61,452 nt of DNA, from contig JASGMV010000017.1 of NCBI GenBank assembly GCA_030156255.1, positions 1 through 61,452 on the forward strand. Reading direction: 5' to 3'. Each line of letters opens with the position of its first letter. Positions within the stretch are counted from its first letter, which is position 1. The stretch comes from Desulfovibrionales bacterium (GTDB lineage Bacteria; Desulfobacterota; Desulfovibrionia; Desulfovibrionales; Desulfovibrionaceae). Shown piece by piece: positions 9,718-25,276 of the stretch. The notes under the pieces were generated by a model that was not told the DNA's origin, did not search any database, and saw nothing but the letters and a program-made list of their open reading frames with translations. Both the position numbers and the translations under genes were made by a program.

Positions 9718-10011
9718 CTATTTTATACCATAATATTTAAGCGCAGCTTCAGTTAATACTGATGTTGCAACTGAAATACCCATCTTCCAAGTTCCAATCG
9801 CAGCTTTTTTCAAATTTGACGCTATCCAGTTTTTAGCATTCTGCCCGAAAGGTTCTTCTTTGCTTGTTGGCGTTTCTTGCTCTACAATTGTAGCAAACTC
9901 AGTTGCATCATCTTCTGGAAATCCTGCGGCAACAAGGTATCCCATGAGTGAACTTTTGTCATGGCTTACAATGGAGACATCGACTTTGATCTCAGAGGCA
10001 TTCGAACTCAC
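9718..10011 (-). CDS. unknown 97-residue protein
   Basis: Not recognised. The first half is acidic and polar (IKVDVSIVSHDKSSLMGYLV, then FPEDDATEFATIVEQE). The second half is an amphipathic to hydrophobic, Gly/Ala-rich helix from about residue 60 to the end (WIASNLKKAAIGTWKMG followed by ISVATSVLTEAALKYYG). This could be a membrane-active or oligomerising tail. It is encoded opposite to its neighbours, after the zeta-like pair. The composition is intermediate. The gene is supported by an ATG and sensible length only, so confidence is moderate. Confidence 0.5.
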   Translation of the reverse strand: MSSNASEIKVDVSIVSHDKSSLMGYLVAAGFPEDDATEFATIVEQETPTSKEEPFGQNAKNWIASNLKKAAIGTWKMGISVATSVLTEAALKYYGIK

Positions 10012-12778: not shown

Positions 12779-13153
12779 TTACAAAAATACCTTGAAGTTG
12801 GCGTTCAGCGCCTCCCCCAGGCGTTTGGCCACGTCTTTGCCAATGGGGCGCTTGCCGTTCTCCATTTCCGAAATATGGTGAGGCTTCAGCTTGGCTAGCT
12901 CCGCAAGCTGCTTCTGCGTCAGCTCCTCCCGCAGGCGGAAGCCGCGCAGGATCGCTCCGGGGTGGCTGTCCGGGAAGACTTCGGAGGCGTCGAAGAGTTC
13001 TTCGCCCTCATCGTTGGTTTCGCGCACCTCGTAACCCGCCAGCCGCCAAAATTCTTTGGTGGCGGTGAGGATCCGGGCTGCGTCCTTGGCCGGAGCCCGG
13101 AGGCGCATCTCAACGAATTTTCCCGTAGTCTGCTTTTTCGTGAGTTCCAACAT
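12779..13153 (-). CDS. XRE-family antitoxin (HigA-like)
   Basis: A 124-residue DNA-binding protein, predicted to neutralise the toxin encoded just before it and repress the operon. The helix-turn-helix is in the C-terminal half (LTQKQLAELAKLKPHHISEM then ENGKRPIGKDVAKRLGEAL), after about 60 residues of alpha/beta sequence. Start at 13153 is chosen because GGAGG lies six bases upstream; it falls inside the toxin gene, giving a 44-base overlap and probable translational coupling. The next upstream ATG in frame (13201) gives an Arg/Trp-rich extension that is the shadow of the toxin frame. Confidence 0.85.
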   Translation of the reverse strand: MLELTKKQTTGKFVEMRLRAPAKDAARILTATKEFWRLAGYEVRETNDEGEELFDASEVFPDSHPGAILRGFRLREELTQKQLAELAKLKPHHISEMENGKRPIGKDVAKRLGEALNANFKVFL

Positions 13154-13421
13154 ATCGAACCTCCACCAATTGAATGGCGTTCTCCGCCACCTTCCAGACA
13201 ACCACGTATCGCGGTTTGCTCTTGTCCAGGTGGCAATGATGGTAGCCGGGCTTTCCTTTCAGTTTGCCGTAGTTGGGCCAGGAAGGAACCACGGGGCCGT
13301 TGACCTCGATGTCCCGGCGAAGAGCGTCCAAAAGCGCCTGCCAGCGCTCGGGCAATTGCTCTTTCTGCTTCCTGGCCTTTCCCGTAAACTGAACTGTCCT
13401 GCCCATGGCGTATGTTACCAT
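13110..13421 (-). CDS. RelE/HigB-like toxin
   Basis: A 103-residue (98 if the ATG at 13406 is used) basic protein of the RelE/ParE fold, predicted to cut mRNA at the ribosome. The pattern FTGKARKQKEQLPERWQALL at the N-terminus and KPGYHHCHLDKSKPRYVVVW with VEVRYVGTHEKADY at the C-terminus is typical: the latter is the RelE-like beta sheet with its terminal His-x-Tyr region. Toxin-first order is that of higBA systems. TACCA/TGGTA half-sites overlap the start codon and could be the operator. Neither candidate start has a strong ribosome site. Confidence 0.85.
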   Translation of the reverse strand: MVTYAMGRTVQFTGKARKQKEQLPERWQALLDALRRDIEVNGPVVPSWPNYGKLKGKPGYHHCHLDKSKPRYVVVWKVAENAIQLVEVRYVGTHEKADYGKIR

Positions 13422-17230: not shown

Positions 17231-17812
17231 TTCGTAGTTTTTGTTTATGTAATAAAATTTTCATCGTAATTTTTTTCATCACCCCTGTCCAGTCGGGCTC
17301 AGGCTCTAATTTCTTCGGTCCTGGCTTGGGAGTATCTTCTTGGTATTACCAAATTATATTTTTTATACGATCCATATAATCTTTTCTTGACTCATGCCTC
17401 GCATCGGCGTAAAAATTTCTTACCAATTTTGAACGCTTCGGTTGAAAGAAACCTCGCCTGAGGGAAGGATTCGGTCTGAACCAATGGGTAGGGTGGGTTG
17501 TTTGCCGGCCTGCGCCCGTTGAGACGATCCCTCCCTTTTTAGGTTTGAACCGCTTTTTTCCTCCTGGCGCAACTTCGGCGGTTATCCGCCGGGAGCTGGG
17601 ATGGGACACCTTTCTGACTCGTTCAAAGCCTTCTTGTTCTTCGCCGCATGGATGGACGGCTTCCGTCGCGTTTTCGACGGCGCCTGCATGCTTCCCGGTT
17701 CCGCTGGCGTTGCGCTTGTCCTTCCTCGATCAACGCGATCGTCCTGCCCGCTTCTGAAATCGTCCCGGCGCAATCCTTCGGGTGCGCGCCGACAACGCAT
17801 ACGAGGTCTCTC
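17231..17812. other. 582-bp divergent intergenic region between bioD and the Nfl operon
   Basis: The left part (to about 17420) is AT-rich, consistent with promoters in both directions. The right part is GC-rich and holds a possible small ORF (17601-17816) whose stop overlaps the ATG of the next gene. No repeat or riboswitch was recognised. Confidence 0.5.
17387..17415 (+). promoter_or_regulatory. possible promoter for the Nfl operon
   Basis: TTGACT (17387-17392), a 17-base spacer and TAAAAA (17410-17415). Match by eye to sigma-70 boxes; it lies about 400 bases before the first gene, so a long leader or an extra small gene would be implied. Confidence 0.35.
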
Positions 17813-19432
17813 ATGACATTGACGCACGATCTCGATCGGATCGTTTGTGCGGGAAACACCTTTGTCGTCTTCGCTCAGGTTCAGAACGGACGGGTGCAAA
17901 GGGCGTGGAGCACCGGCCGGATGATGCGGAGCTTGGAGATGATTCTGGAGAGCGCGGAGGGGCCGGACGGCTTGCCGACCTTCATTCCCCGCGCCTGTTG
18001 CCTCTGCAATGACGCCCACATCGCAGCAGCGGTGCGCGCCTGCGAGGATCTGTTCGGAGTGGAGCCCCCGCGCCCCGCCCGGCTTATTCGCAGTCTTGTT
18101 CAGGCCGTTCGTTTTCTGCAGGAGCACCTTTTGCACGTGTACCAGTACAGTTTGTCCGACTGGGCCTGCGCTCAGCGCGCCTTGCGGGCCGATGCAGCGA
18201 AGGCGGCGGCCATGGACTCGGGGGGGCGGGCGCCGGCTTATTTCCAGGAGGCGCAGGTCCGTTTGGGGGACATGCAGCGCCGCCACGCCGGCGGGCGTTC
18301 TTCGAGCCTTGCGGACTCGGAGAGTTACGCAGGGCCGGATGAACTGCATCTGTTGCTGCATGCGCACAGTTTTGAGTCGCTACGGGTGCGGAAATTTTTG
18401 AACGCGGCGCTGGAATCGCTGGGAGGCTCCGATTCCTCCCATCCCGCCTTTCAGGTCGGAGGCGTTTCCGATCGACTGGGCCTGGATTCCCATACGCTGC
18501 GATACGTTCAGAGTCTGCTGGCGCAATGCCGGGATTTCATCACCGGCGCCTTGCTGCCGGATCTGGAGCATACGGCCCGGTCTTATCCCGAATGGGCGGT
18601 GCGCGGTCCCTCGGAGAATTTTCTCTCCTGGGGTGGATTTCTCGGGCGCGATGGGCGCGATGCGCTGTTTCCGCGCGGCGTTTTCTCCCTGGCGCCGGAA
18701 GGCGGTAGGGTGCGCGGCCAAGCGGCGGATACGGCGGGAGTCGTTGAAGAGGAGCATTTGGATTGGAGCGCGGAGGACGCGGCCATCTACCGCTTGCGTT
18801 TGGAGTCTCGCGGTGTGGCTTTTTCCTGGGGAGGCGGCGTTCTTGACTGGTTTGTCTCTCCCCGGCATCATGCGCAAGCCTGCGAAGTCGGTCCGTTGGC
18901 CCGGATTCTCGGCGCTCGCGCTGTGAACGAAAAACTGGTCGCGACGGAGCTGGATGCGTGCTTGGTCCGTATCGGGCAACCATTGACGGCTATGAACTCC
19001 ACGCTGGGGCGCGTCCTGGCGCGAGGGGTGGAGGCTGCCGCGCTGGCGGAGGCCTCGCTGCGCTGGCTGGACGAGTTGGCTTCCGAGCTTGCAAGCGGCC
19101 GCGCGGACCTGCGCAGCCCCCTCCCTGCTCCGCCGGACGGGGAGGGCGTCGGGTTGGTGGAAATTCCTCGCGGGGCTTTATCCCACACCATCACCGTGGA
19201 GAGCGGCCGCATCACGAATCATACCCACCTCATCCCGTCGCTGTGGAATTTCGCGCCAGGGGGCCCGGAGGACCGGAGCCCGCTGGAAAGCGCTTTGGAG
19301 CGTACGCCGGTGGAGGGCGAGAGCCCTTTGAATTTGTTGCGAACGATCCACGCCTTCAGTCCATGCAACGCCTGCGTGGTCGTTTGGGAGGACGTGGACA
19401 AGGGAACCGTGTCCAAAACGTGGGCTCAATGA
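17813..19432 (+). CDS. divergent [NiFe]-hydrogenase large-subunit-like protein
   Basis: A 539-residue relative of NiFe large subunits, first gene of the Nfl operon. N-terminal FVVFAQVQNGRVQRAWSTGR and the RSLVQAVRFLQEHLLHVYQY region match the family, as do EVGPLARIL and IPRGALSHTITVESGRI with NHTHLIPSLWN. The Ni-site pairs are kept: Cys62-x2-Cys65 (RACCLC, with Cys63 replacing the usual Gly) and Cys518-x2-Cys521 (SPCNAC). Lost are the L1 Glu (RIVCAG instead of RIEGH), the Asp before the last pair, and the His at the endopeptidase site, so the C-terminus is probably not processed. No small subunit or maturation gene is near. Start at 17813 has GAGG upstream. It may be a nickel or NiFe scaffold or a new enzyme rather than a hydrogenase (inference). 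Confidence 0.88.
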   Translation: MTLTHDLDRIVCAGNTFVVFAQVQNGRVQRAWSTGRMMRSLEMILESAEGPDGLPTFIPRACCLCNDAHIAAAVRACEDLFGVEPPRPARLIRSLVQAVRFLQEHLLHVYQYSLSDWACAQRALRADAAKAAAMDSGGRAPAYFQEAQVRLGDMQRRHAGGRSSSLADSESYAGPDELHLLLHAHSFESLRVRKFLNAALESLGGSDSSHPAFQVGGVSDRLGLDSHTLRYVQSLLAQCRDFITGALLPDLEHTARSYPEWAVRGPSENFLSWGGFLGRDGRDALFPRGVFSLAPEGGRVRGQAADTAGVVEEEHLDWSAEDAAIYRLRLESRGVAFSWGGGVLDWFVSPRHHAQACEVGPLARILGARAVNEKLVATELDACLVRIGQPLTAMNSTLGRVLARGVEAAALAEASLRWLDELASELASGRADLRSPLPAPPDGEGVGLVEIPRGALSHTITVESGRITNHTHLIPSLWNFAPGGPEDRSPLESALERTPVEGESPLNLLRTIHAFSPCNACVVVWEDVDKGTVSKTWAQ

Positions 19433-19469: not shown

Positions 19470-20480
19470 ATGTTAGAGCGAGGCGAAATTCTTGAGCTGT
19501 TGCGCGGCGTTGAAAATCAGGACCAGCTTTTTCAGCGGGCGAGGGATATCCGCCGGACATATTGCGGCGACGAGGTGCAACTGCGCGGGGTGGTCCATTT
19601 TTCCAACTATTGCCGTTGCAACGACCTCTATTGCGGGTTGATGAAGGACAATGCGCAGACCCGGCGTTTTCGCATGACCGAAGACGAGGTGGTGCAAACC
19701 GCCCTTGCCGTCGCGGAAGCCGGGCTGCACACGGTGGTGCTGCAATCCGGGGAGGACTTTCATTACTCCCGCGCCATGCTGTGCTCCATCATCCGCCGCA
19801 TTCTGGACCAGGCCGACGTGGCGATCACGCTGAGCCTGGGAGAACGGCCCGTGGAGGACCTGCGCGCCTTTCTGGACGCCGGCGCCAGCCGGTATTTGAT
19901 GAAGCACGAGACCGTGAATCCTGCGCTGTATGCGAAAATGCGTCCCGGCTTGCGGCTCGATGACCGGCTGCGCGCCATCGAAACGCTGCGGCGGTTGGGC
20001 TACCAGGTGGGCGTGGGCAACATCGTGGGGCTGCCCGGCCAGACCCTCGAGGACCTGGCCGAGGACATTCTCTATTTCCAGGAATTTCAACCGGACATGG
20101 TGAACATCGGCCCCTTCATTCCCCATGCGCAGACCCCGCTGGCGGCGTATCCCTGCGGCGACATGGAGCTGATGCTGCGGGTCTTCGCCTTGACGCGCAT
20201 CGTCACCGGGAACACGCACATGGCGGCGGCCAACACCGTGGCGACCCTGGACCCGGAGAACGGCCAGTACCTTTGCCTGGCTCTTGGGGGCGCAAACGTC
20301 ATCATGCCCAACTGCAATCCGTTTCTGAAAAGCCGGACCGACAAGATCGAATACGAGTTTCAGATCACCACGGCCAAGCGTTACGTGTCCGTGGGCGAGG
20401 CCCGCCGCGTTCTGGGCCGGGCCGGCCGGACCGTGGCGCAAGGCCCGGGGCATTCCTTGAAAATGAACGCCGCGGCGTAG
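19470..20480 (+). CDS. HydE/BioB-type radical SAM protein with an unusual Cys motif
   Basis: A 336-residue radical SAM TIM-barrel protein, closest in pattern to HydE, PylB and biotin synthase. The cluster motif reads NYCRCNDLYCG, with Cys at 48, 50 and 55 (C-x-C-x4-C), where HydE has C-x3-C-x2-C. The middle Cys position is Asp52. Other landmarks remain: LQSGEDFHYS (SAM contact), LSLGERP, SRYLMKHETVNPALY and VGVGNIVGLPGQTLEDLAED, followed by FIPHAQTPL. Starts are ATG 19470 or GTG 19461. It lies between the hydrogenase-like and NifH-like genes. It probably makes or modifies a cofactor for the operon, but the altered motif could affect radical chemistry. Confidence 0.88.
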   Translation: MLERGEILELLRGVENQDQLFQRARDIRRTYCGDEVQLRGVVHFSNYCRCNDLYCGLMKDNAQTRRFRMTEDEVVQTALAVAEAGLHTVVLQSGEDFHYSRAMLCSIIRRILDQADVAITLSLGERPVEDLRAFLDAGASRYLMKHETVNPALYAKMRPGLRLDDRLRAIETLRRLGYQVGVGNIVGLPGQTLEDLAEDILYFQEFQPDMVNIGPFIPHAQTPLAAYPCGDMELMLRVFALTRIVTGNTHMAAANTVATLDPENGQYLCLALGGANVIMPNCNPFLKSRTDKIEYEFQITTAKRYVSVGEARRVLGRAGRTVAQGPGHSLKMNAAA

Positions 20481-20539: not shown

Positions 20540-21310
20540 GTGATCAAAGTGGCCATTTACGGCAAGGGCGGCATCGGCAAATCGACCGTGGCGTCGGGAA
20601 TCTCCGCCGCTCTGGGGATGAAGGGAACGCGCGTCATGCAATTGGGATGCGACCCCAAGACCGACTCCACCATCAACTTGTTGGGCGGCTCCCCGCCGCC
20701 TCCGATTTTGCAATATTTGCAGGAGCACGGCCGGCCTGCAGGCCTGGAGGACATCGCCCGGCGCGGAGCGGGCGGCGCGGTCTGCATGGAGGTGGGAGGC
20801 CCCACGCCGGGCGTCGGCTGTTTCGGCCGGGGCATGCTCACCGCTTTTGAACTGCTGGAGGAAATGGGCGCCTACGCCGTCTATCGGCCGGACGTGGTGC
20901 TGTACGACATTCTGGCGGACATCGTGTGCGGCGGCATCGCCGTGCCCATGCGCGAAGGCTTCGCCGACAAGGTCTGCATCGTCACCTCGGGCGAAAAAAT
21001 GGCGTTGCTGGCCGCGCGCAACATCATCACCGCCCTGCGCAATTTCGCGGACCGCCATTACTCCGAACTGGGCGGGCTCATCCTCAATTGCCGCGATATG
21101 GACCACGAGGAACAACGGGTCCGCGACTTCGCCGAGGAGATGGAGACCGAGATCATCGGCGTGATCCCGCGCGATACGGACATCCATCGCTACGAGGAGC
21201 AGGGCATGACGATTGTGGAGGGAGCCCCGGACCATCCGACCTCGGCGCGGTTTTTCGAGCTGGCCAAGACCATTTTGCAATTCGAACCCAAAAGCGCCGC
21301 GGTTTGTTGA
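20540..21310 (+). CDS. NifH/BchL/CfbC-like ATPase (NflH)
   Basis: A 256-residue homodimeric iron-protein-type reductase that passes electrons from its [4Fe-4S] cluster to the NifDK-like partner with ATP hydrolysis. GTG start at 20540 has a GGGAGGGA ribosome site. The P-loop YGKGGIGKST is at 7-16; switch I CDPKTDST at 37-44; cluster ligands Cys94 (PGVGCFGRG) and Cys130 (DIVCGGIAVPMREG) correspond to NifH Cys97 and Cys132. All signature residues are intact, so it should be functional. It is shorter than NifH (about 290) because the C-terminal tail is absent, as in group IV members. Good evidence that the operon has an active redox function. Confidence 0.95.
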   Translation: MIKVAIYGKGGIGKSTVASGISAALGMKGTRVMQLGCDPKTDSTINLLGGSPPPPILQYLQEHGRPAGLEDIARRGAGGAVCMEVGGPTPGVGCFGRGMLTAFELLEEMGAYAVYRPDVVLYDILADIVCGGIAVPMREGFADKVCIVTSGEKMALLAARNIITALRNFADRHYSELGGLILNCRDMDHEEQRVRDFAEEMETEIIGVIPRDTDIHRYEEQGMTIVEGAPDHPTSARFFELAKTILQFEPKSAAVC

Positions 21311-21360: not shown

Positions 21361-21407
21361 GCGCATCAACGTGCGTGAGTTTTTAACGGTCAAAAATGAG
21401 GAACGAT

Positions 21408-22706
21408 ATGCTGTTGGATCAAGCCGGAGTATGCGCGCGCGACCTGCGCCGCAAGGAGGATTTTCCGTTCGCTCCCCTGGAGGGCGTCGGCCCCAACCTG
21501 GCCGGATGGGGCGTCATCGAAACCTGCCTGCTGCTGCCTGAATCCATTTGCGTCATGGCGGGGCCGTCGGCCTGCTTGCGCCATTCCGCTTTCATGGCGC
21601 ACGCCCGCGGGTTCACGGAGCGTTTTTACATGCTGTGCCTGTCCGAATTGGACATGACCATGGGCAAGCATTTGGAAAAGGTGGAGCGGGGTGTGGCCGA
21701 TATCGCCGCGCGCCGCAGTGAGAAGGTCATTTTCCTCATCGTGGGCTGTCCGGATTATATTTTGGGCACGGACTTCACCGGCGTTATCGCCAGGCTGGAG
21801 CAAGCCACGGGAAAGCGCGTCATTCTCGGAGCCATGGCGCCCATCACCATCGGGCTCAAGGATTCTCCCTTCACCAGCGCCTATACCGCTTTTTTCGATT
21901 TTCTGAAGGATGTCCCCCGCAGCCCGGACCCGAACACCGTCAATCTGTTGGGAACCTTCATGCCGCTGTCCGACTCGGGAGAACTGTACCGAACGCTCGC
22001 CGCGGCCGGCGTTCAGGAAGTGCTGCAAATCCCCTTGTGCTCCACCCTGGAGCAATTCGGCCGCATGGCCAGCGCCCGGACGTCCGTGGTGCTGCACCCC
22101 TTGGCCAACGGATTGAACGGCAAGCTGGAGAAGGAACTGGGCCTTTCAAGCTGCTTCACGCCAACCGCCTACGGCTTTCCCACCATCGCCGAACACTATG
22201 AGCGCATCAGCCAGGCCGTGGGGCGAACGTTGGACGTCTCCGCGGTCGCGGAAGCCGCCCGGGCCGAGGCGGAGCCTCGGCTGGAGGCGTTGCGGGGCAA
22301 ACGCATCGCTATCGGATGCAGCATCAACGGCAGTCCTTTTGAACTGGCCCATTTTCTTCTTCAGTCCGGGCTGCAGGTGGAGGCGCTGTTCGCACGCAGC
22401 GGCGTCAGGCCTTTCGAATGGAAGATTCTCGACGACCTGCGCGACATCAAGCCGGACCTCATGATCTACAATGCGTCGCATCCGGCCCTGTGCGGCCGGA
22501 CCGAGCCTTTCGACCACATCGATATCGCTTACGGCGTGGACGCGGGCGTGTTTTGCGTCAACGCGGTCAACGTTCCCTTGTCGCGCTATCAGGAGCAAAA
22601 GTTCGGCTACGAAAACACGCTGTGGCTGCTGGACCAGACCGAGCAGGCCCTGGCCGACCCGGTGAGCAACTACGACTGGATTTACCGCCACAATTTTCTC
22701 ATCTGA
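21408..22706 (+). CDS. NifD-like nitrogenase-superfamily subunit (NflD)
   Basis: A 432-residue protein of the nitrogenase component 1 fold. Start at 21408 is chosen because GAGG lies six bases upstream; an ATG at 21396 is also possible. Candidate cluster ligands are Cys56 (MAGPSACLRHSAF, the place of NifD Cys88) and Cys114 (VGCPDYILGTDF, the place of NifD Cys154). The Cys62 equivalent is not found; Cys40 and Cys48 lie between instead. The FeMo-cofactor Cys/His pair of NifD was not recognised. It is followed after 15 bases by the NflK gene. By analogy to BchN, CfbD or MarD it should bind a low-potential cluster and a substrate. Confidence 0.88.
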   Translation: MLLDQAGVCARDLRRKEDFPFAPLEGVGPNLAGWGVIETCLLLPESICVMAGPSACLRHSAFMAHARGFTERFYMLCLSELDMTMGKHLEKVERGVADIAARRSEKVIFLIVGCPDYILGTDFTGVIARLEQATGKRVILGAMAPITIGLKDSPFTSAYTAFFDFLKDVPRSPDPNTVNLLGTFMPLSDSGELYRTLAAAGVQEVLQIPLCSTLEQFGRMASARTSVVLHPLANGLNGKLEKELGLSSCFTPTAYGFPTIAEHYERISQAVGRTLDVSAVAEAARAEAEPRLEALRGKRIAIGCSINGSPFELAHFLLQSGLQVEALFARSGVRPFEWKILDDLRDIKPDLMIYNASHPALCGRTEPFDHIDIAYGVDAGVFCVNAVNVPLSRYQEQKFGYENTLWLLDQTEQALADPVSNYDWIYRHNFLI

Positions 22707-22721
22707 CACAAGGGGATTTCC

Positions 22722-23927
22722 ATGCAAACGTACCATCAACTGCTTCCCCTGGCCACGGGCTACTTCGGAGTCAGCTCCGCTCTCTACGATTTCGACGGAC
22801 TGGTCGTGATTTACGGCCCGGCCGGCGGGGCGTGGCACATCAATATCGAGGACGAACCTCGTTGGTATCGCGGCCCGGCCACGGTGGTCGGCGCCGGGAT
22901 TCTTGAAATGGATGTGATTCTTGGCAACGAAAACAAGTTCATCGACAATATCGTGCGCGCGGCTTCCGAACTCAAGCGCAGATTCGTAGCCCTCACCGGA
23001 ACGCCCATTTCCGAGATCATCGGCACGGATCTCCGGGGGCTCGCCCGCATGATCGAAACGCGCACCGGGCTGCCTACGTTCATGACGCCGACCGCCGGGT
23101 CCGAGCCGTACTCCCAGGGCGCCTCCAAGGCGTTTCTGGCTTTGGCCGACAAGTTTATGGACCCGCATGCGCCCAAGCGTCCGAACGGGATCAATGTGCT
23201 CGGCGCCGTCCACCTTTCTTTGGGCAAGGAAGCGCATGTGCAACCGTTGCTGGACGGCCTCGAAAAAGAAGGCTTCGAACTGGTGGGCGTGCTTTCCGCG
23301 CCCCGGCCGGGCGGCGGCGATCCCTTGCAGGGGGTGCGCGACGCCCCGGGAGCCGCGCTCAACCTCGTGGTGTCCGCGAGCGGAGTGGACCTTGCCGAGC
23401 GCATGTACGCTCAGTACGGCGTTCCCTACGTGACGGGCCTGCCGGTCGGGCGTTATGGTTGGGCCGCTTTGCAAGCGTTGTTGCGAGGAGAAGAACCGCC
23501 GCAGGCGCCCGCGGCTCCCGAACGCACGAACCTGCGCCATGCGTTGGTTATCGGCGAACCGGTCATGAGCGAGGGCGTCCGCTGCTGCCTGCGTCATGAT
23601 TTCGGCGTCCCGGCCGTGGACGTTGTCTCCGTGCAGCCCCGCGGAGGACTTTTGCAGGCTTCCGAGGCGCGCCGGGGAAGCCTGATGTCCAGCGGACCGG
23701 CGGACGCGGAGACGGACGACGAGCAGGAAATCGCCGCACTCATGAACGCTCCGGACGTGGACTGCGTGGTCGCGGACCCCTGTTACCGTCCTTTGCTGGA
23801 GGAGGGGGCCGCCGCCCGTTTCATTCCGCTGCCGCATATCGCTATGAGCGCTCGAATCCATTGGGATTTGCCCTATGAATACGCGCTGGAGGCGGGATAT
23901 GGCTATGTGGCTGAGCAGCTTGCCTGA
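22722..23927 (+). CDS. NifK-like nitrogenase-superfamily subunit lacking N-terminal Cys (NflK)
   Basis: A 401-residue protein, last gene of the operon. The fold signature is visible: YGPAGGAWHIN (where NifK has GSQGC) and TGTPISEIIGTDL (where NifK has TTCMAEVIGDDL). Both cluster Cys are replaced, by Gly36 and about Pro95. The first cysteines in the whole protein are Cys288 and Cys289, then two near the C-terminus (DCVVADPC). It therefore cannot supply the usual three P-cluster ligands, so any interface cluster must rely on NflD or on non-Cys ligands. Central VGVLSAPRPGGGDPLQG and C-terminal EEGAAARFIPLPHIA resemble the family Rossmann parts. ATG at 22722. Confidence 0.82.
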   Translation: MQTYHQLLPLATGYFGVSSALYDFDGLVVIYGPAGGAWHINIEDEPRWYRGPATVVGAGILEMDVILGNENKFIDNIVRAASELKRRFVALTGTPISEIIGTDLRGLARMIETRTGLPTFMTPTAGSEPYSQGASKAFLALADKFMDPHAPKRPNGINVLGAVHLSLGKEAHVQPLLDGLEKEGFELVGVLSAPRPGGGDPLQGVRDAPGAALNLVVSASGVDLAERMYAQYGVPYVTGLPVGRYGWAALQALLRGEEPPQAPAAPERTNLRHALVIGEPVMSEGVRCCLRHDFGVPAVDVVSVQPRGGLLQASEARRGSLMSSGPADAETDDEQEIAALMNAPDVDCVVADPCYRPLLEEGAAARFIPLPHIAMSARIHWDLPYEYALEAGYGYVAEQLA

Positions 23928-24307: not shown

Positions 24308-25276
24308 ATGTTCACCGCCCTGATCCAGATCCTGCCCGTGTTCCTGATCATCGCCTTCGGGGCGCTGCTGGATCTGTCCCGGCTGCTGCCCAAGCAGGCC
24401 GGATCTATCATCGGAACCTACGTTCTGTATGTAGCGCTGCCCTTGCTGCTGTTGCGCACCATGGCCGGGGCGTCCCTGGACGAGGTTATGCGCGGCGGGT
24501 TCTGGATCGGCATGATCGCCGCCCAACTGGCGATCTACGGGCTGGGATACTTCGGCGAGCTGTTTTTGGACCGCCGAGGCCACGGGCCGGCCGCGGTGAC
24601 GGCGTTGTCCTGCAGTTGCTCCAACATGGCCTTCATCGGGTTGCCGGTGATCATGAGCGTATTGCCCGGCAACCACGAGGCCCTGGTGGCCACGGGATTT
24701 GCGATGGTCTCCTCGGTCGTGGTGACCGCGCCTTGCCAGATGCAATTGGAATTTCTCAAATACGCCGGCGACCAGGACAAGGGCTTTTGGCCCAAACTGG
24801 CCCACGCCACGCTTCACAACCCCTTCGTGGTCGCCACGGTCCTGGGCCTCCTGCTGGGCCTTACCAGGACCAGGCTGTGGGCGCCGCTGGACGGAGCCGC
24901 GGAGATGGTCGGGGCCACGGCCGCTCCGTGCATGTTGCTGGCCCTTGGCCTGGACTTGCGCGACAAGGTGCGCGCGGCTTTCTCCCGAAAACAGGGCGTC
25001 GGCGTCGCGAGGCTGGTTCTGGTCAATACGGTCAGGCTCGTTGTCAGCCCTTTGCTCGCCTGGGGGCTTCTGGCCTGGCTCGGCGTCGCCGGAGTATGGC
25101 TCGCCGTGGGCGTCATCACCAGCGGAGCGGGCTCGGCTTTGCTGACCTACGTTGTCGCGGAAGTCTATCAACAACTTCCCGAGGACACCGCGCTGATCGC
25201 CGTGGTCTCCAACATCCTGAGCCTTTTCACTCTATCGATTCTCATCACGGCCTTGCGCTCGCAAGGGGCGATGTAG
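24308..25276 (+). CDS. AEC-family (auxin efflux carrier-like) transporter
   Basis: Inner-membrane transporter of 322 residues with about ten helices in two halves, as in bacterial AEC proteins such as malonate or amino-acid carriers. Typical parts are VFLIIAFGALLDLSRLLPKQ at the N-terminus, YVLYVALPLLLLRTMAG, the mid-protein SNMAFIGLPVIMSVLPG and the C-terminal helix with VAVVSNILSLFTLSIL-like character. The ribosome site is poor (A-rich). It is separated from the Nfl operon by the hairpin element and its own promoter, so probably independent. Substrate unknown. Confidence 0.9.
   Translation: MFTALIQILPVFLIIAFGALLDLSRLLPKQAGSIIGTYVLYVALPLLLLRTMAGASLDEVMRGGFWIGMIAAQLAIYGLGYFGELFLDRRGHGPAAVTALSCSCSNMAFIGLPVIMSVLPGNHEALVATGFAMVSSVVVTAPCQMQLEFLKYAGDQDKGFWPKLAHATLHNPFVVATVLGLLLGLTRTRLWAPLDGAAEMVGATAAPCMLLALGLDLRDKVRAAFSRKQGVGVARLVLVNTVRLVVSPLLAWGLLAWLGVAGVWLAVGVITSGAGSALLTYVVAEVYQQLPEDTALIAVVSNILSLFTLSILITALRSQGAM

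Follow-up and report, generated by a model that had tools for sequence, protein, structure and literature searches.

How does a HydE-type radical SAM protein operate when one of the three cysteines of its CX3CX2C motif is an aspartate, and what does such a protein do in an operon with nitrogenase-like genes? These questions were raised by a gene in a 61,452-nucleotide stretch of DNA from Desulfovibrionales bacterium (contig JASGMV010000017.1 of assembly GCA_030156255.1); the whole stretch is called the window hereafter. The frame is open for 336 codons from position 19470, and the bases at 19611-19634 (TGC CGT TGC AAC GAC CTC TAT TGC) read Cys-Arg-Cys-Asn-Asp-Leu-Tyr-Cys, which confirms the codon reading given in an earlier note on this DNA. 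The features of the locus are listed in Table 1.

Table 1. Features of the Asp-HydE locus in the window.
Feature	Coordinates	Strand	Basis
[NiFe]-hydrogenase large-subunit-like protein	17810..19432	+	PF00374; start codon inferred, longest frame from 17648
Asp-HydE, HydE-type radical SAM protein with CX3DX2C	19470..20480	+	TIGR03956, PF04055, model match
Cluster motif Cys48-Arg-Cys-Asn-Asp52-Leu-Tyr-Cys55	19611..19634	+	Codons read; Asp52 codon 19623-19625
Codon of Cys282 (MPN-C-NPF), which always accompanies Asp52	20313..20315	+	Alignment
NifH-like ATPase, GTG start	20540..21310	+	PF00142, 258.6 bits
NifD-like nitrogenase component 1	21396..22706	+	PF00148, 103.8 bits
NifK-like nitrogenase component 1	22722..23927	+	PF00148, 84.3 bits
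AEC-type membrane transporter downstream of the operon, at most a possible member of the system	24308..25276	+	PF03547, 77.5 bits

In profile searches, the protein, here called Asp-HydE, scored 267.3 bits against TIGR03956 (HydE), above the curated cut-off of 254.6, and 67.8 bits against PF04055. It matched Thermotoga maritima HydE at E 6e-78, with 40-41% identity to the HydE structures, bearing out the earlier statement that the protein is otherwise HydE-like. The best structure matches of an AlphaFold2 model (mean pLDDT 81.6) were likewise T. maritima HydE (TM 0.88), so that the predicted fold is that of HydE. The motif, in contrast, read CX3DX2C in 22/22 rows of the alignment described below, and because this replaces CX3CX2C, we classed Asp-HydE as a HydE-derived variant and not as a plain HydE. 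Compared with HydE itself (TIGR03956; T. maritima 3CIW, 3IIZ and 7O1O), it shares the fold and the SAM-side residues, whereas CX3DX2C, Cys282 and a partly changed substrate side set it apart.

Conservation of the motif was read in 22 distinct Asp-type rows, drawn from metagenome relatives, a class search and a phylum search. The metagenome set comprised six relatives (L003-L008) from named assemblies, with 61-75% identity. The class search, covering 348 genomes, gave 19 at E 1e-174 or better, followed by a gap down to 1e-118, and the phylum search, covering 395 genomes, gave two more Asp-type genomes. The 19 genomes are taken as the class carriers, to which G305 was added after a fragment at a contig end had been read; among the weaker class-search matches, the motif was read only where the locus was returned. 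The Cys-type comparison consisted of 44 HydE rows, one of them an incomplete further copy from G155, and the Cys282 column could be aligned in 42 of these, two rows being without a residue there.

As the alignment showed, Cys48, Asp52 and Cys55 were present in all 22 Asp-type rows, and so was Cys282, which occurred in 0/42 alignable Cys-type rows. The suggestion that Asp takes the place of the middle cluster cysteine therefore holds throughout the clade, and C-x3-C-x2-C, the arrangement that the earlier note had named as counter-evidence, was found in no orthologue read. The C-x-C-x4-C spacing proposed along with it was rejected as a conserved feature, since 9/22 orthologue rows deviate. The extra cysteine within the motif was found at position 3 in 13 Asp-type rows, at position 2 in five and nowhere in four, and a stray cysteine at one of these positions also occurred in 8/44 Cys-type rows, so that it is not special to the Asp-type group; a role as a general compensating ligand was rejected on the same counts. 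In the tree, the Asp-type proteins formed a single clade with a support of 100/100 and a long stem. Taken together, the alignments define the trait as CX3DX2C combined with Cys282, fixed clade-wide. A sequencing or assembly error at the motif, for which the earlier note had proposed a check of the reads and which has nothing in its favour beyond the unusual residue order, is refuted with negligible residual probability, because the window's eight residues, or at least the Asp, recur in L003-L008 from other assemblies and across all 22 rows, which come from many assemblies.

Residues S122, E147 and R166, which we take to be the SAM contacts of T. maritima HydE, were invariant in a seven-row alignment of Asp-type proteins. 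In 13/22 carrier genomes, Asp-HydE was the sole TIGR03956 match at E 1e-40, and each of these 13 genomes encodes a HydA bearing the three H-cluster motifs. On these two grounds, a loss of radical chemistry, also entertained earlier, appears less likely. Such a loss is part of an explanation in which Asp-HydE, lacking radical SAM chemistry, would be a scaffold or an iron-diatomic carrier beside the NifHDK-like complex; the disappearance of a motif cysteine throughout the clade and the replacement of the substrate-side Thr pair of T. maritima HydE are consistent with it, but the presumed SAM contacts and the 13 genomes with no other such match argue against it, and we regard it as rather improbable.

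If Asp-HydE is instead an active radical SAM enzyme, as we prefer, Asp52 may be a weak carboxylate ligand of the cluster, or Cys282 may provide its third thiolate. Judged from the fold, Cys282 would lie after the final strand of the barrel, adjacent to the strand that bears the cluster loop; the pLDDT of the model is under 50 for residues 283-303, directly after Cys282. That one or the other of the two residues is a cluster ligand seems plausible, at a confidence just short of even. A labile Asp ligand, Asp311, is described for the [4Fe-4S] cluster of HydF (PMC12752695); the parallel lies in the shared pathway and in the Asp at a [4Fe-4S] cluster, although the HydF cluster is not a radical SAM cluster. 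With the Asp52/Cys282 pair, nature provides a test of the extent to which the radical SAM CX3CX2C rule can bend. A divergent HydE-like protein with the motif CDRACRHC, which may be decaying, was also seen adjoining hydF in G286 (L066, 16353-17501, minus strand).

The operon in the window encodes, in this order, the [NiFe]-large-subunit-like protein, Asp-HydE and the NifH-, NifD- and NifK-like proteins. Of 20 loci read in other genomes, 18 kept this order (a contig end truncates one), and the other two, L075 and L076, had Asp-HydE-NifH-NifD-NifK without the large-subunit-like gene, which is a member of the operon in Desulfovibrionaceae-type loci. The large-subunit-like protein passed PF00374 with 273.5 bits (cut-off 25.8), and its closest solved structure was a D. 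fructosovorans-type large subunit (E 4e-74), with the [NiFe] core mostly retained. The large subunits of [NiFe] hydrogenases carry the motifs C-x2-C-x3-H and D-P-C-x2-C-x2-H. In an alignment of 18 rows, from which the fragment L057 was excluded, Cys120, Cys573 and Cys576 were present in 18/18 and Cys118 (before L/I-C) in 17/18. The first motif was shifted to C-x-C in 17/18 rows, and the final His of the second was absent in 18/18, so that the [NiFe] signature was not found intact; the cysteines at the aligned bridging positions were retained. Such a pattern would fit a nickel-free iron site.

The NifH-like protein scored 273.9 bits against TIGR01287 (NifH), under the curated cut-off of 394.35, and its Cys94 and Cys130 were conserved in 21/21 rows. 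Cys60, Cys118 and Cys387 of the NifD-like protein were likewise found in 21/21 rows, and Cys308 in 20/21, while the NifK-like protein had no cysteine conserved in 20 or more of the 21 rows. Like BchLNB, BchXYZ, CfbCD and NifEN, the three are PF00142 and PF00148 proteins in H-D-K order; unlike these systems, they reached none of the curated NCBIfam cut-offs of named nitrogenase-like enzymes, and their NifK-like member lacks a conserved cysteine.

The genomic company of Asp-HydE points to [FeFe] hydrogenase maturation. With HydF scored at E 1e-60, HydF was present in 19/19 class carriers versus 160/329 other class genomes, and G305 also has it. HydA accompanies HydF across the carriers (22/23); it was not found in G305, which has the operon and HydF, perhaps owing to an assembly gap. 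Among the 22 carriers searched, all 17 that lack HydG encode at least one HydA with a full set of the three H-cluster motifs; by the pattern used, an additional HydA copy of the window's own genome has two of them. The stretches read around the 20 operon loci contained hydF in 10, aspA in 9, hypD, hypE or hypF in 9 and hydA in 4. The genes flanking the operon at both L075 and L076 include aspA, hydF, hypF and a gene for an [FeFe] hydrogenase; hypD and hypE join them at L076. As a control, the surroundings of hydF were read in 20 HydG-positive non-carriers (three stretches cut by contig ends), and these contained no nif-like gene and a hyp gene in one case. Within the 61 kb of the window, no match to the hydF or hyp queries was found. 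Several carriers, G000, G273 and G314 among them, keep a second HydE in addition to Asp-HydE. In PMC11736057, AspA encoded near hydF is assigned the supply of ammonia for the bridging ligand, and authentic hydF genes are taken to be those with adjacent hyd genes. Asp-HydE thus shares HydF, AspA and HydA with HydE as genomic company and differs from it in its NifHDK-like partners and in the frequent absence of HydG.

This absence was examined among the 179 HydF-positive class genomes, with HydG scored at E 1e-90. HydG was missing in 14/19 carriers versus 22/160 others (Fisher p 9.6e-8, a value that overstates the contrast because the genomes are related). With G305 counted as a carrier, the figures were 15/20 carriers versus 21/159 HydF-positive non-carriers, 138 of the 159 having HydG. 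The difference was also seen within genera: in g5, HydG was missing in 7/8 carriers versus 0/21 HydF-positive non-carriers, and in g8, it was missing in 2/2 carriers and present in 14/15 non-carriers. Five of 23 carriers nevertheless have a HydG over the cut-off, and the operon is therefore not solely a HydG substitute.

The window's own genome carries hydA, a HydG remnant, aspA, a Cys-type hydE and hydF on one contig. The remnant (L118, G000:C84 2676-3155), located between hydA and aspA, has its first ~130-140 residues fused in frame to its last ~27-30, so that the C-terminal part is missing along with most of the barrel. No further HydG was detected in this genome, and it is scored as lacking HydG. 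The gene appears to have been internally deleted; an assembly error is possible.

The HydF-positive, HydG-less genomes that were first scored as non-carriers numbered 22. One was G305, and six have a related operon in genus g45, described below. In a further six (L112, L115, L116, L117, L125 and L208), hydE and hydF were adjacent and no nif-like gene was present in the stretch read, which constitutes a further HydG gap; of the remainder from the same class, three lie on short contigs and six were outside the locus reading. A motif-based survey of acetogens (PMC9431212) detected HydG in just a subset of the genomes and named free diatomics or an atypical form of HydG as possible reasons.

In the HydG-less g45 genomes (G147, G155, G156, G145, G146 and G132; operon loci L113/L186, L114/L187, L202-L205 and L232), two NifHDK-like sets come after hydE and hydF. 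Next to these are hypF, hypC and hypD in 5/6 genomes and hypE in four, the contig of the sixth genome ending there; in G146, the distance from hydE to hydF is ~4 kb. A separate search of 22 genomes, the six g45 genomes among them, detected no HydG above the cut-off. The HydE of g45 has all three cysteines and falls in a clade separate from the Asp-type. Since g45 has similar gene company with a Cys-type HydE, the Asp is not required for HydG-less life. As in HypCDEF maturation of [NiFe] hydrogenases, the HypF, HypD and HypE proteins of the loci studied here (and HypC in g45) are over their family cut-offs; the hyp genes differ, however, in lying beside hydF and NifHDK-like genes. No PF00374 protein was found in G147 or G155, the two g45 genomes tested, and their Hyp genes are therefore without the usual client. 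A HypA-family protein is present in both despite the missing PF00374 protein, and an absence of HypA, considered as a sign that Hyp retains just its iron branch there, was rejected. A Fisher test pooling Asp-type carriers with g45 was set aside, as the g45 operon had been sought in only part of the HydG-positive non-carriers.

In the established scheme, as given in PMC12752695, HydG makes an Fe(CN)(CO)2 synthon, HydE converts this to [Fe2(SH)2(CO)4(CN)2]2-, and HydF finishes and delivers the product. HydG is taken as required for H-cluster assembly in PMC6212873, and the product of HypCDEF is given as Fe(CN)2CO in PMC9431212. Asp-HydE carriers resemble this scheme in having HydF, HydA and AspA, presumably with the same H-cluster product, and differ from it in that HydG is mostly missing, with NifHDK-like and often Hyp genes alongside. 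The full explanation that we judge best, and hold with slightly more confidence than doubt, is that the HydE-derived Asp52/Cys282 protein serves a HydG-independent route to the [2Fe] part of the H-cluster. Taken by itself, a route to the H-cluster without HydG is fairly probable from these gene distributions, whereas Hyp as the ligand source in that route is evenly balanced between true and false. In such a route, Fe-CN/CO units made by HypCDEF would stand in for the HydG synthon, and the large-subunit-like protein would carry a unit, nickel-free, on its retained bridging-type cysteines. The NifHDK-like complex would then supply ATP-driven low-potential electrons that alter the ligands or the charge of the unit, and Asp-HydE, with SAM binding kept, would make the di-iron precursor for HydF. 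It is a more tentative proposal, which we would sooner doubt than accept, that two unrelated hydrogenase classes share one CO/cyanide source, with Fe-CN/CO units from Hyp passing through a nickel-free carrier to the HDK complex and to an enzyme of the radical SAM type whose cluster is bound by two cysteines of the motif and by either Asp52 or the remote Cys282.

The operon might alternatively make a separate, new metallocofactor for the large-subunit-like protein, its ties to HydF and HydA reflecting descent from a hyd cluster. This would suit the presence of the large-subunit-like gene in 18/20 loci, the retention of most of the [NiFe] core, and the separation of the operon from hydF in 10/20 loci as well as in the window. 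It stays a serious rival because of HydG in five carriers, the lack of HydA in G305, the second HydEs, the six HydG-less genomes without nif-like genes near hydE-hydF and the Cys-type HydE of g45. However, the operons of G420 and G452 have hydF and hydA but no large-subunit-like gene, as is likewise the case for the g45 operons, and the missing HydG would be left unexplained. We consider a separate cofactor unlikely.

The importance of the locus rests on a conserved operon that is often found by hydF, contains nitrogenase-like genes, frequently has hyp genes close by and reaches its highest frequency in genomes without HydG. If true, the HydG-independent route would give the CO and CN ligands of the H-cluster a second origin, link [NiFe] and [FeFe] cofactor assembly, and assign a job to an orphan nitrogenase-like clade. 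We recognised no description of a CX3DX2C HydE or of a HydE-NifHDK-HydF-Hyp locus in the literature searched, the coverage of which excluded most subscription journals and bioRxiv.

Two further features of the window were observed apart from the operon. The G+C content is ~0.39-0.41 between positions 10000 and 13000, compared with ~0.6 beyond, and a 571-codon frame in this region appears to resemble DUF262-type proteins. Two small overlapping frames are located at 12779-13421 on the minus strand, and we take them to resemble a toxin-antitoxin pair of the HigBA type.
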